Below are positions 60,100-64,000 of a stretch of DNA of 64,000 nucleotides, one piece after another (within the stretch, counting starts at the first letter, position 1; every line of letters begins with the position of its first letter). The DNA comes from Anaerolineae bacterium. Its GTDB lineage: Bacteria > Chloroflexota > Anaerolineae > Promineifilales > Promineifilaceae. The notes below the pieces were generated by a model that searched no databases, had not been told where the DNA came from, and was given only the letters and a program-made list of their open reading frames with translations. The DNA lies in NCBI GenBank assembly GCA_007123775.1, contig SLGK01000072.1, positions 1-64,000 on the forward strand, in the 5' to 3' direction. A program made the translations under genes and the position numbers.

Positions 60100-60416
60100 A
60101 TGTTCAACCAACTAACCGCCTGGTCCAACCTGCTGCTGGCCTATCGCCGTGCCAGCCGGGGCAAACGCGGCCGGTGAGTGAGGGCATTCCCTTTTTAGGG
60201 TTTGTGATTTACCCGGACCGTATTCGCTTGAAACGGCGCAAGGGCATTGCCTACCGGCGCAAGTTTCGCGGGCTGCTAAGGCAGTATGCGGCCGGGGAAA
60301 TTGGGTTGGAGCAGGTGAATGCCTCGGTGCGGGGCTGGGTGAACCACACGCGCTTTGGCAATACGGTGGGGTTACGCAAAGGCTTGTTGTCACGAGAAAT
60401 TGTGCGGTCGCCGTAG
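60100..60416 (+). pseudogene. DGR reverse transcriptase, internally deleted
   Basis: The first 25 codons (60100-60174, MFNQLTAWSNLLLAYRRASR then GKRGR) match the start of diversity-generating retroelement reverse transcriptases (NLLLAYRRA.RGKRGR). They end in TGA 60175-60177. In another frame from 60174 come ~80 residues of the C-terminal part: GIPFLGFVIYPDRIRLKRRK, then YRRKFRGLLRQYAAGEIGLEQ, VRGWVNHTRFGNTVGLRKGLL, all typical of the family end. The ~200-residue fingers/palm portion with the YxDD active site is missing; the joint is near 60172. So the enzyme cannot work in this form. It is on the plus strand, opposed to template, Avd and target genes. Confidence 0.85.
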
Positions 60417-60653: not shown

Positions 60654-60686
60654 AAACCTGCGAGGTCTCGGAGACCTCGCAGGTTT
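60654..60686. repeat. 15-bp perfect hairpin beside the template repeat
   Basis: AAACCTGCGAGGTCT (60654-60668) pairs perfectly with 60672-60686, loop CGG. It stands 4 bp from the template repeat, on the side that corresponds to its 3' end on the coding strand. A stem at this place is typical of DGRs near the variable repeat, but this word is also a general intergenic repeat. Confidence 0.85.
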
Positions 60687-60690
60687 AGAC

Positions 60691-60781
60691 TGAGAAGTGT
60701 GGACACCCACCACCAACCGCAACCCGTTGTTGTCGTTGAAGTTGTTGTCGGGTTTGTTGTCGTTGCGGGCCGAACAAGCGT
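60691..60781 (-). repeat. DGR template repeat (TR)
   Basis: It matches the variable repeat at 61591-61681 without gaps, offset exactly 900 bp. Blocks 60701-60727 and 60765-60781 are identical. Between them (60728-60764) 12 bases differ: 11 of these are T on the plus strand, that is A on the coding (minus) strand of TR, and one is G on the minus strand. On the minus strand TR reads as a run of AAC and GAC codons (N, D, N, K, P, D, N, N, F, N, D, N, N), the typical form of templates whose adenines are randomised. Past 60781 the match continues only with a gap of about 6 bases, so TR is shortened at its 5' end. Confidence 0.92.
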
Positions 60782-60844: not shown

Positions 60845-60907
60845 AGTGCCAGGCACGGGGCGGACGGTCCTGGTCAAATTGAGTCCTGCTGCCCCGTGCC
60901 TGGCACT
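60845..60907. repeat. 17-bp perfect hairpin (GGCACGGGGC word)
   Basis: AGTGCCAGGCACGGGGC (60845-60861) pairs perfectly with 60891-60907 across 29 nt. A sister copy is at 61454-61515. It stands just after the Avd gene on the minus strand. Confidence 0.85.
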
Positions 60908-60928
60908 GCCCTGCAAAGGGCTTGACCG

Positions 60929-61279
60929 CTAACGACTACCTACGCTCTTTAACCAGCCGCCCAATAAGCGGCCCACCTCGGCCACCATAGCGGCGGCGTG
61001 TTGGTATTGGCCGGGGGTAAGCCACTGCCAGCGTTCGACCAGGCGCAGGTAGAGGCGTAGCTTGCCCAGGGCCACGTCGGCCTCTTGCAGCTTGGCCAGG
61101 CGAGCCGCCCCGCGCATGGCGTTGGCCTCTTCCAGCCGTTCACGTAGATCAAAGGCGGCACCCAGGAGGCGCTGGGTGACGGTGTGGCGGTGGGCGCGGG
61201 GAAAGTGGTTGCTCATGGGCAACAGCCAGGTGAGCAGATCGAAGGTTTTAGTGAAAATGGGCATTTCGGATTGGGTCAT
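60929..61279 (-). CDS. avd: Avd-like DGR accessory protein
   Basis: 116 residues from ATG 61279 (MTQSEMPIFTKTFDLLTW); a longer frame to 61315 is less likely. All-helical, four-helix-bundle pattern: IFTKTFDLLTWLLPMSNHFPR, HRHTVTQRLLGAAFDLRERL, LQEADVALGKLRLYLRL, MVAEVGRLLGGWLK, as in bAvd/S23-like accessory proteins of DGRs, which bind the reverse transcriptase and template RNA as a pentamer. It lies between TR and the variable gene, on the same strand as both. No Shine-Dalgarno; a small AAACGATTT hairpin (61289-61309) covers the leader. Confidence 0.85.
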   Translation of the reverse strand: MTQSEMPIFTKTFDLLTWLLPMSNHFPRAHRHTVTQRLLGAAFDLRERLEEANAMRGAARLAKLQEADVALGKLRLYLRLVERWQWLTPGQYQHAAAMVAEVGRLLGGWLKSVGSR

Positions 61280-61440: not shown

Positions 61441-61453
61441 TGGTAGACAGGCG

Positions 61454-61515
61454 GTGCGAGGCACGGGGCAGCAGGATGGTTGTTAACCAGGATGGTTCCG
61501 CCCCGTGCCTTGCAC
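61454..61515. repeat. second copy of the GGCACGGGGC hairpin
   Basis: GTGCGAGGCACGGGGC (61454-61469) pairs with GCCCCGTGCCTTGCAC (61500-61515) with one mismatch; same element as 60845-60907. Confidence 0.8.
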
Positions 61516-61531: not shown

Positions 61532-61548
61532 GGGCGGCTACGCCGCCC
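61532..61548 (-). terminator. hairpin after the variable gene
   Basis: GGGCGGC-TAC-GCCGCCC (61532-61548). Read on the minus strand it is followed after 6 nt by TTTTTT (61525-61520). It lies 36 bp past the stop of the variable gene: a likely terminator, and in the place of the hairpin that aids retrohoming in known DGRs. Confidence 0.6.
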
Positions 61549-61583: not shown

Positions 61584-64000
61584 TCAGCGGTGAGAAATGG
61601 GGACACCCACCACCAACCGCAACCCGTCGGTGCCGTCGAAGTCGTAGACGGGGTTGCCGTTGTAGCGGGCCGAACAAGCGTTCTGATTACTGTAACATGC
61701 ACCACCGCGCAAAATCATCCAGTCTCTGTTGTCGCGGCTAATTGTCTCATAGTTTGCCTCAAGCTGGTAGGGGAATTTTTTACCGTGATAGCTGCGCGTC
61801 CATTCCCATACCTGGCCGCTCAGATCCAGGCAGCCGTAGGGGCCGGCCCCGGCCGGGAAGCTGCCCACGGCGCAGGGCTGGCCGATGCCGGCTTCTTTGT
61901 TGTTGGCCCGGTATAAATCGCCAGCCTGTTCCGCTGCGTCGCCCCAGGGGTAGGTGCGCCGGGAAAGTTCATTCTCTACCATCTGCGGCGGTTGGTAATT
62001 CTTTAGATTGGCGGCGGTCATCAGCAGCGGCGCGGCCGGTATTTCCAGGCCGCCGCGAGCCGCTTTTTCCCACTCTACTTCGTTGGGCAGCAGCACCCGG
62101 CAGCCGTCGGGCAGCCAACCTTTGTCTCGCCAACGCTGGTCCAGCCAGTTGGCAAAGGCCAGGGCGTCATACCAGTTTACGTAGACCACCGGCCAGTTGG
62201 CGGGCAACCTTTCAATACGGTCCAGAGTGTATGGTTTATGATCCTTTTTATCGGCCAGAAATTCGTGAAATTGGGCGGCGGTGACGGGGTAACGGCCGAT
62301 CCAGTAAGGTTTGTCCAGGCCATCGTAGACAACACCCTGCCCTTCCTCATCCCAATTCGCCAGCCAGAAGGGGCCGGCCGGGACAGCGCAAAAAACCATC
62401 TCGTCGCAGGTGAGAATGCCGGGCCGGTCATCGCCCAGGGCGGCCAGGGTTTCGCCAGCCAGGGCGCGGTCGCGGGGGGGCAGCCAGCCCCGGCTGATAA
62501 TGGCTTTGTGCCAGCGCAGCAGCCGCTGCCGCGTTTGCTGTTCGCTCTCGATTTGGGCCTCGTCAGGCGCGGTCAGTTCCGTTTCCAACAACGACTGTCC
62601 GGCCAAAAACGCGCCCCACAGCGCTTCTTCGTGGGCCGTGTCCGGGGCCGTCTCCGGGGTTCTTTCTGCGGGCGGGTCGCTCTGACAAAGGGCGCTGGCC
62701 AGCAGCCAGACGGAAGCGGGCAGCTTTTTCTTGACGCTGGCGGCGGCCAGCAGCAGGCTTTCGCGCCAGCGGGTGGGATCCTGGCGGGCAAATTGGGCCA
62801 GTTCGTAGGGAAAGCGCTGCTTCAACAGGTGCAGCCCGGCCAGATATTCTTGAAACGTGCGGTGGGGAAAGCGGTAAACGTGGTCGCTTTTATCGGCATT
62901 GAGGCCATGATCTTCCAGCAGGCCGGCCCGATCGCGCACGTAGTTGATAATCTCGTCAACGCTGGCCTGGCTCTGCCGTCCTTTGTGCTTGTGGAGCTTG
63001 CCGGCCAGGATTTCGCCGGGGATGTCGGCCGTTTGTTCCTGTTCCGGCTGGTCACGATGAGCTACAAAAGCAACTTCGGCCAGAGCGTCTAGCAGTCTGG
63101 GGGTGTCCATGCCCAGCTCATCATCCAGCGTCTGCGTCTCCTGGCCGGGCACAACTTTGGAGCGTCGCCACAAATCGAGCAGGAGAATAACGCTGAGTTC
63201 GTACAGCTCCTCGCGCCGCTGCGGCAGCGCGCCCCCTTCCCGGCCGCGATGGATATAGACCATCATCGTCAACAGCAGCGGATGGCGGGCCAGCTCGCGC
63301 AGGCTGCGGTTTTGTTCCACCTGCCGCACCAGACCAGCGGCATAATTTTTGGCGTTTTCCGGTCCCAGGGCGCCATCCTGCTGCCCCATAACCGTATACC
63401 ACTGCTCAATGAAGGCTTTGATCTGTTCATCGCTAAAGGGGAGCAGGCGCGTGACCTGGAAGCCGCTTAATTCCCAACCGCTGCCGTAAGCGTAGGGGCG
63501 GCTGGTAACGACAACACGCACGCGGGGGAAGTCGCGGGCAAATTGCTCAATGTATTGTTTGAGCGGATCGCGCACGCTGGCTGCTTTGTCTACTTCGTCC
63601 AGCCCGTCCAGCAGCAAGATGCCGCCTTCGCCCTGCAACTGCTGTTTAAGGTGGGGGGCGTAATCGGCCAGCCCTACCGCCTCACGGCTGAGGTCGGCAG
63701 CGACGTAGTCCCAAATCGTCTGCCGGCGGGGGAGGCCACGGGCAGCATATTCGCGCAGAATGACGCGCACGGGGCGCAGTCGTTGGGGGCTGAGGCCCCA
63801 CTGGTGCTGCCGCAGATGCTCCTGGGTCACGGCCAGATTTTCACCGTAGTCGCCGACCAGTCGCTCGCCGGCCAGGCAGAGGGTGAGGTAGTTGACCAGG
63901 GTTGATTTGCCGGAACCGGGCGCGCCCAGGATGACCAGGCGGCTGTTTTCTTGCCGACTAATGGCGGCCAGGGCCGGTTCGCGCTGGAGGCTTTCGCGCT
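61584..64000 (-). CDS. NACHT ATPase fused to an FGE/C-type-lectin-fold domain, DGR target (partial)
   Basis: The frame is open to the window end, so the N-terminus is missing; it is not a gene that begins at 63830. Read from there: P-loop GAPGSGKST (about 63900-63926), Walker B ILLLDGLDEVD (about 63590-63625), VVVTSRPYAY, then the helical tail of NACHT/STAND ATPases. The last ~260 residues are a formylglycine-generating-enzyme-like fold (RYPVTAAQFHEFL, LPNEVEWEKAARGG, YPWGD, PYGCLDLSGQVWEWT, LRGGACYSNQN), used as ligand-binding scaffold by DGR proteins. The end ACSARYNGNPVYDFDGTDG is the variable region. The design suggests an intracellular sensor whose binding face is diversified; NACHT proteins often trigger defence or cell death. 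Confidence 0.9.
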   Translation of the reverse strand, partial: RESLQREPALAAISRQENSRLVILGAPGSGKSTLVNYLTLCLAGERLVGDYGENLAVTQEHLRQHQWGLSPQRLRPVRVILREYAARGLPRRQTIWDYVAADLSREAVGLADYAPHLKQQLQGEGGILLLDGLDEVDKAASVRDPLKQYIEQFARDFPRVRVVVTSRPYAYGSGWELSGFQVTRLLPFSDEQIKAFIEQWYTVMGQQDGALGPENAKNYAAGLVRQVEQNRSLRELARHPLLLTMMVYIHRGREGGALPQRREELYELSVILLLDLWRRSKVVPGQETQTLDDELGMDTPRLLDALAEVAFVAHRDQPEQEQTADIPGEILAGKLHKHKGRQSQASVDEIINYVRDRAGLLEDHGLNADKSDHVYRFPHRTFQEYLAGLHLLKQRFPYELAQFARQDPTRWRESLLLAAASVKKKLPASVWLLASALCQSDPPAERTPETAPDTAHEEALWGAFLAGQSLLETELTAPDEAQIESEQQTRQRLLRWHKAIISRGWLPPRDRALAGETLAALGDDRPGILTCDEMVFCAVPAGPFWLANWDEEGQGVVYDGLDKPYWIGRYPVTAAQFHEFLADKKDHKPYTLDRIERLPANWPVVYVNWYDALAFANWLDQRWRDKGWLPDGCRVLLPNEVEWEKAARGGLEIPAAPLLMTAANLKNYQPPQMVENELSRRTYPWGDAAEQAGDLYRANNKEAGIGQPCAVGSFPAGAGPYGCLDLSGQVWEWTRSYHGKKFPYQLEANYETISRDNRDWMILRGGACYSNQNACSARYNGNPVYDFDGTDGLRLVVGVPISHR
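61591..61681 (-). repeat. DGR variable repeat (VR)
   Basis: Last coding bases of the NACHT-FGE gene. Compared to TR it changes codons at the residues Y, N, G, N, V, Y, D, D, G, T, D (of the stretch Y N G N P V Y D F D G T D), while P and F codons are kept because the template has no A there or it was not hit. The invariant GLRLVVGV end is GC-rich and identical in both, as in an initiation-of-homing site. Confidence 0.92.

Follow-up and report, generated by a model that had tools for sequence, protein, structure and literature searches.

The window, which is the whole stretch of 64,000 nucleotides of Anaerolineae DNA that was analysed, contains a DGR locus near its 3′ end. The locus comprises two remnants of a reverse transcriptase (RT) gene on the plus strand and a template repeat (TR), an Avd gene and a target gene with its variable repeat (VR) on the minus strand. 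Three complete DGRs of Chloroflexota (L053, L054 and L055) were used as the main comparison. The features are as follows.

60100 to 60174, plus strand: 5′ remnant of the DGR RT gene, 25 codons, of which about 23 are homologous; a TGA follows at 60175-60177.
60166 to 60172, plus strand: deletion join CGCGGCC, out of frame, with about 727 bp lost relative to L053 and L055.
60171 to 60416, plus strand: 3′ remnant of the DGR RT gene, the last approximately 80 codons (thumb/C-terminal region), without the palm.
60691 to 60781, minus strand: TR, with a variable core at 60708-60781.
60929 to 61279, minus strand: intact gene for the Avd accessory protein, above the cut-offs for NF033474 and PF22296.
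61532 to 61548, minus strand: hairpin GGGCGGC-GTA-GCCGCCC behind the VR, a 7-bp inverted repeat and candidate target-recognition stem-loop, with counterparts in L053-L055.
61591 to 61681, minus strand: VR, in the 3′-terminal part of the target gene.
61584 to 64000, minus strand: target gene for a NACHT plus FGE-sulfatase (C-type lectin) sensor; the 5′ end of the gene falls beyond the window, near 64595-64658.

The frame opened by the ATG at 60100 reads MFNQLTAWSNLLLAYRRASRGKRGR and then ends at the TGA at 60175. A different frame reads RPVSEGIPFLGF...REIVRSP, with its stop at 60414-60416. Against full-length DGR RTs of Chloroflexota genomes the C-terminal piece shows 82-83% identity, and the N-terminal piece is 78% identical to the same full-length RT over 23 aa. 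A profile built from ten DGR RTs was searched against the whole assembly and matched both pieces at the window locus. The best solved match to a full-length relative RT was PDB 8ub7 with its sister entries (E of 1e-49 in the sequence comparison and 2e-68 in the profile comparison), which represent the Bordetella phage DGR RT. Judged by these alignments, membership of both remnants in the DGR RT family is not in doubt. The first-pass annotation had described 25 N-terminal and approximately 80 C-terminal codons joined out of frame near 60172; the frames, the alignments and the profile all agree with that description, and the alignments speak against the refuting case it named, two pieces unrelated to RTs.

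The distance from the RT start to the PVSEG motif is 798 nt in L053 and L055 and 71 nt in the window. The 727 nt lost are not a multiple of three. Judged against intact relatives, RT residues approximately 24-265 are missing. D129, Y227, D229 and D230, which are invariant across ten relatives, fall within the lost part, and all three catalytic aspartates (D129, D229 and D230) are gone; the YxDD palm is absent, as the first reading had it. Both RT ends are in place and collinear with the relatives. The join reads GGCAAACGCGGCCGGTGAG, and the corresponding sequences in the relatives are GGCAAACGCAGCCACCC on the left side and CGCCCGGTGAG on the right. A homology of approximately 7 nt at most is possible at the join, the ancestral bases being judged from relatives only. 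Repeat collapse was considered as a cause of the join and rejected, since in the relatives the sequences around the two ends have nothing long in common.

A complete active DGR requires an RT with an intact palm (YxDD), an Avd, a TR/VR pair differing nearly only at TR adenines, and a C-type-lectin (FGE) target gene that carries the VR at its 3′ end. The first of these is lacking in the window and the other three are present, in line with the earlier statement that TR, Avd and the variable gene are intact. Avd scored 91.3 bits against NF033474 (cut-off 80) and 71 against PF22296 (cut-off 40). TR and VR differ at 14 positions, 12 of them on TR adenines (P about 6e-7); with the roles of TR and VR swapped, 1 of the 14 mismatches is at an adenine. 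Within the 74-nt core, 11 of 12 mismatches are at adenines. The in-frame translation of TR is ARNDNKPDNNFNDNNGLRL, and its code is rich in AAY, as is typical of DGRs. The target gene is intact as far as its start near 64595-64658 and its product is a NACHT-FGE protein of approximately 1000 aa, with an FGE domain (PF03781, 113.9 bits) and the VR within its last codons. Only two TR/VR mismatches are not at adenines, so rewriting of the VR may have continued until very recently, a point that counts against inactivation.

Two dispersed repeats were also seen at the locus. A palindromic, REP-like repeat, AACCTGCGAGGTCTCGGAGACCTCGCAGGTTT, lies directly behind TR (60654-60686) and has dozens of copies genome-wide. 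Inverted copies of a second repeat, GTGCCAGGCACGGGGC..., flank Avd (60845-60910 and 61450-61515), and further copies are present on contigs C27, C172, C18 and others.

The remnant had been noted to face opposite to TR, unlike the usual order. The first part is correct; the second does not apply to this lineage. The RT of the closest relatives is likewise on the strand opposite Avd, and in L054 and L055 it is opposite to TR. In the Avd tree, the window, L024, L025 and L055 form one clade (support 96/97), all members of which have the RT-opposite order, and the RTs of the other members are intact. RT and Avd are on opposite strands in 9 of the 32 rows of this tree, the window counted. Opposite orientation as a mark of rearrangement or damage was ruled out, this being the typical layout of the window's Avd clade.

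The locus is best explained, with a probability of about 0.8, as a Chloroflexota DGR inactivated by a single, recent internal RT deletion of approximately 727 bp, which would have left a frozen sensor. The RT would formerly have copied TR RNA with the help of Avd, making errors at adenines, and the cDNA would then have replaced the VR in the NACHT-FGE sensor gene. The deletion probably arose where a few bases match, through slippage or end-joining. As the palm domain is lost, mutagenic cDNA would no longer be made, and the sensor would therefore be frozen at its last variant and subject from then on to ordinary mutation. On this explanation TR, Avd and the RT ends would still be present solely because the loss is recent.

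The age of the break was estimated from the remaining codons. Compared over 77 codons with its three closest relatives, the C-terminal remnant has a dN/dS of 0.13-0.14, no higher than the 0.20-0.21 obtained for the intact RTs of L053 or L055 against L054. The C-terminal codons thus still look constrained, which argues that the break is recent. Under a rough Poisson model on the 77 codons, P was 0.07 if 10% of the branch had passed without selection and 0.004 if 20% had, a longer unselected share predicting more amino-acid changes than are seen; by this rough neutral reckoning, unconstrained drift would fit at most about 10-20% of the remnant's branch. The suggestion that the element had just died is therefore supported by one clean internal deletion, a remnant without excess amino-acid changes, and intact partners.

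So few amino-acid changes imply that the deletion either is recent or is not real in all cells. The second option would make the break an assembly or strain-collapse artefact: all cells, or some of them, would have an intact RT, and the assembler would have joined two places or picked up a minority deletion variant. The assembly is a draft (344 contigs, 5.3% contamination), a remnant free of decay is equally expected from an artefact, and published DGR loci have intact and broken variants together in one sample (PMC10907252). The join nonetheless lies inside a 134-kb contig, both ends come from one RT lineage, and the rest of the assembly yielded no stray piece of the RT middle. Assembly word sizes are usually far above the approximately 7 nt of homology at the join. 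We consider an artefact unlikely.

The first-pass annotation had also proposed that another RT in the genome acts in trans. The assembly (5.59 Mb, 344 contigs, 96.4% complete, 5.3% contamination) was searched for such a donor. PF00078 returned two RTs, neither of which qualified as a DGR RT. The first (L001 1468-2355, G000:C44) is free-standing and adjoins Cas1 (PF01867); the second (L002 1198-2352, G000:C229) scored best as retron type XIII, at 431 bits. Besides the two remnants, the DGR-RT profile gave a weak match of 99.6 bits to the C44 RT, compared with 494-664 bits for the full-length DGR RTs of the bacterial family. The middle of a DGR-type RT was found nowhere in the assembly with this profile, and family, profile and DNA searches of the 96%-complete assembly found no second DGR RT, so that the full-length gene looked for elsewhere in the genome was not recovered. 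The Avd profile matched the window Avd only, with no second Avd in the assembly, and the exact TR/VR pattern occurs genome-wide only at the window TR and VR, with no second copy. This leaves a donor no hiding place but the 3.6% of the genome that may be missing.

A full-length DGR RT supplied in trans from a missing part of the genome, a plasmid or a prophage would keep the DGR working and would account for the intact TR, VR, Avd and hairpin and for the constraint on Avd (dN/dS 0.09-0.12). Such activity has been proposed for Thiohalocapsa DGR 4 and 5 (PMC10907252). The published cases, however, have a sister DGR with a matching TR, whereas the window's genome has no second TR or Avd, and its assembly holds no DGR RT. 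Activity in trans is accordingly rated very unlikely. The chance is just as slim that the DGR is active without an RT of its own more broadly, through an unseen trans RT or because a few cells in the population still have an intact RT and pass on variants by recombination. That the 80-aa C-terminal piece has been kept for a new function as a small protein is barely credible: the piece is open, has a possible GTG start and a dN/dS of about 0.13, but a recent deletion accounts for that constraint, the palm domain is missing, no obvious ribosome-binding site is present at the join, and two further C-terminal remnants, L074 and L076 of the same family, are shorter, that of L076 with stops.

Recent inactivation by deletion is also supported by the RT genes of the wider bacterial family. 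DGR-RT profile matches were obtained in 35 of 52 family genomes, a few being other RT types. Counted by eye, about 33 family DGR RTs are full-length and about 13 are truncated, though not by the end of a contig; the number of remnants counted varies with the profile threshold and is affected by the use of draft assemblies, and none of the genomes listed is of the same genus as the window. Internal deletions like that of the window were found in L071 (residues 1-46 joined to approximately 313-345) and L072 (residues 70-94 joined to 292-344), and about ten more truncated RTs occur in the family. An FGE gene lies within about 1 kb of most remnants (e.g. L071, L073, L076-L081 and L088). No Avd match or TR/VR pair was found at remnant loci L071-L082 and L088, and a relaxed search found no TR/VR pair at L071, L073, L080 or L084. 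Among the remnants found, that of the window is alone in being accompanied by Avd, TR and VR together. These loci may form a decay series, drawn from different loci and not from one followed lineage, in which the RT breaks, Avd and TR are then lost and the sensor gene stays. The window locus has most likely been caught early in a process of decay seen often in its bacterial family.

Two further arrangements were observed in the family. At L084 5040-5387 (G021:C89) an orphan Avd was seen; in the 12 kb examined, neither an RT nor an FGE target accompanies it, and there is no TR/VR pair. The opening 37-57 codons of the RT gene occur twice more (L083 8116-8226 and 9543-9713, G012:C192) downstream of a complete DGR on the same contig.

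The complete DGRs L053, L054 and L055 have their parts in the same order as the window, with the RT on the strand opposite to the NACHT-FGE target, Avd and TR, and their RT C-termini are 76-83% identical to that of the window; they differ in having a full-length RT with YVDD where the window lacks approximately 727 bp. Degenerate DGR loci, with parts missing or pseudogenized and with intact and broken versions coexisting in samples, were described by Dore et al. 2024 (PMC10907252). The window has recognisable DGR parts and a pseudogenized RT and is a new instance of this already known phenomenon. The Thiohalocapsa PB-PSB1 loci of that study resemble it in having parts missing or the RT pseudogenized and in targets with sensor-like NTPase and C-type lectin domains, and NACHT-FGE-type sensors are described DGR targets in multicellular bacteria (PMC10907252). 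Damage in PB-PSB1 is by transposons and MITE-like arrays, and complete sister DGRs are present, whereas the window has a plain deletion and no sister DGR. Treponema denticola isolates have likewise lost the DGR core and kept FGE-type target genes, but there TR and RT are both gone (PMC4891356), whereas in the window the RT alone is broken. A TR-VR remnant without an RT was reported in a cyanobacterial study, which suggests that the machinery is removed once a good variant has been reached (PMC7517822).

Intact TR, VR and Avd, as this locus cautions, are no proof of an active DGR. The locus would mark an early and clean stage on the way to losing targeted hypermutation, in which the writer is gone and the template, helper and target are left. 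Together with the more eroded loci of the family, which have a target gene and an RT scrap but no TR or Avd, it suggests that the RT can break first while the sensor gene is kept.
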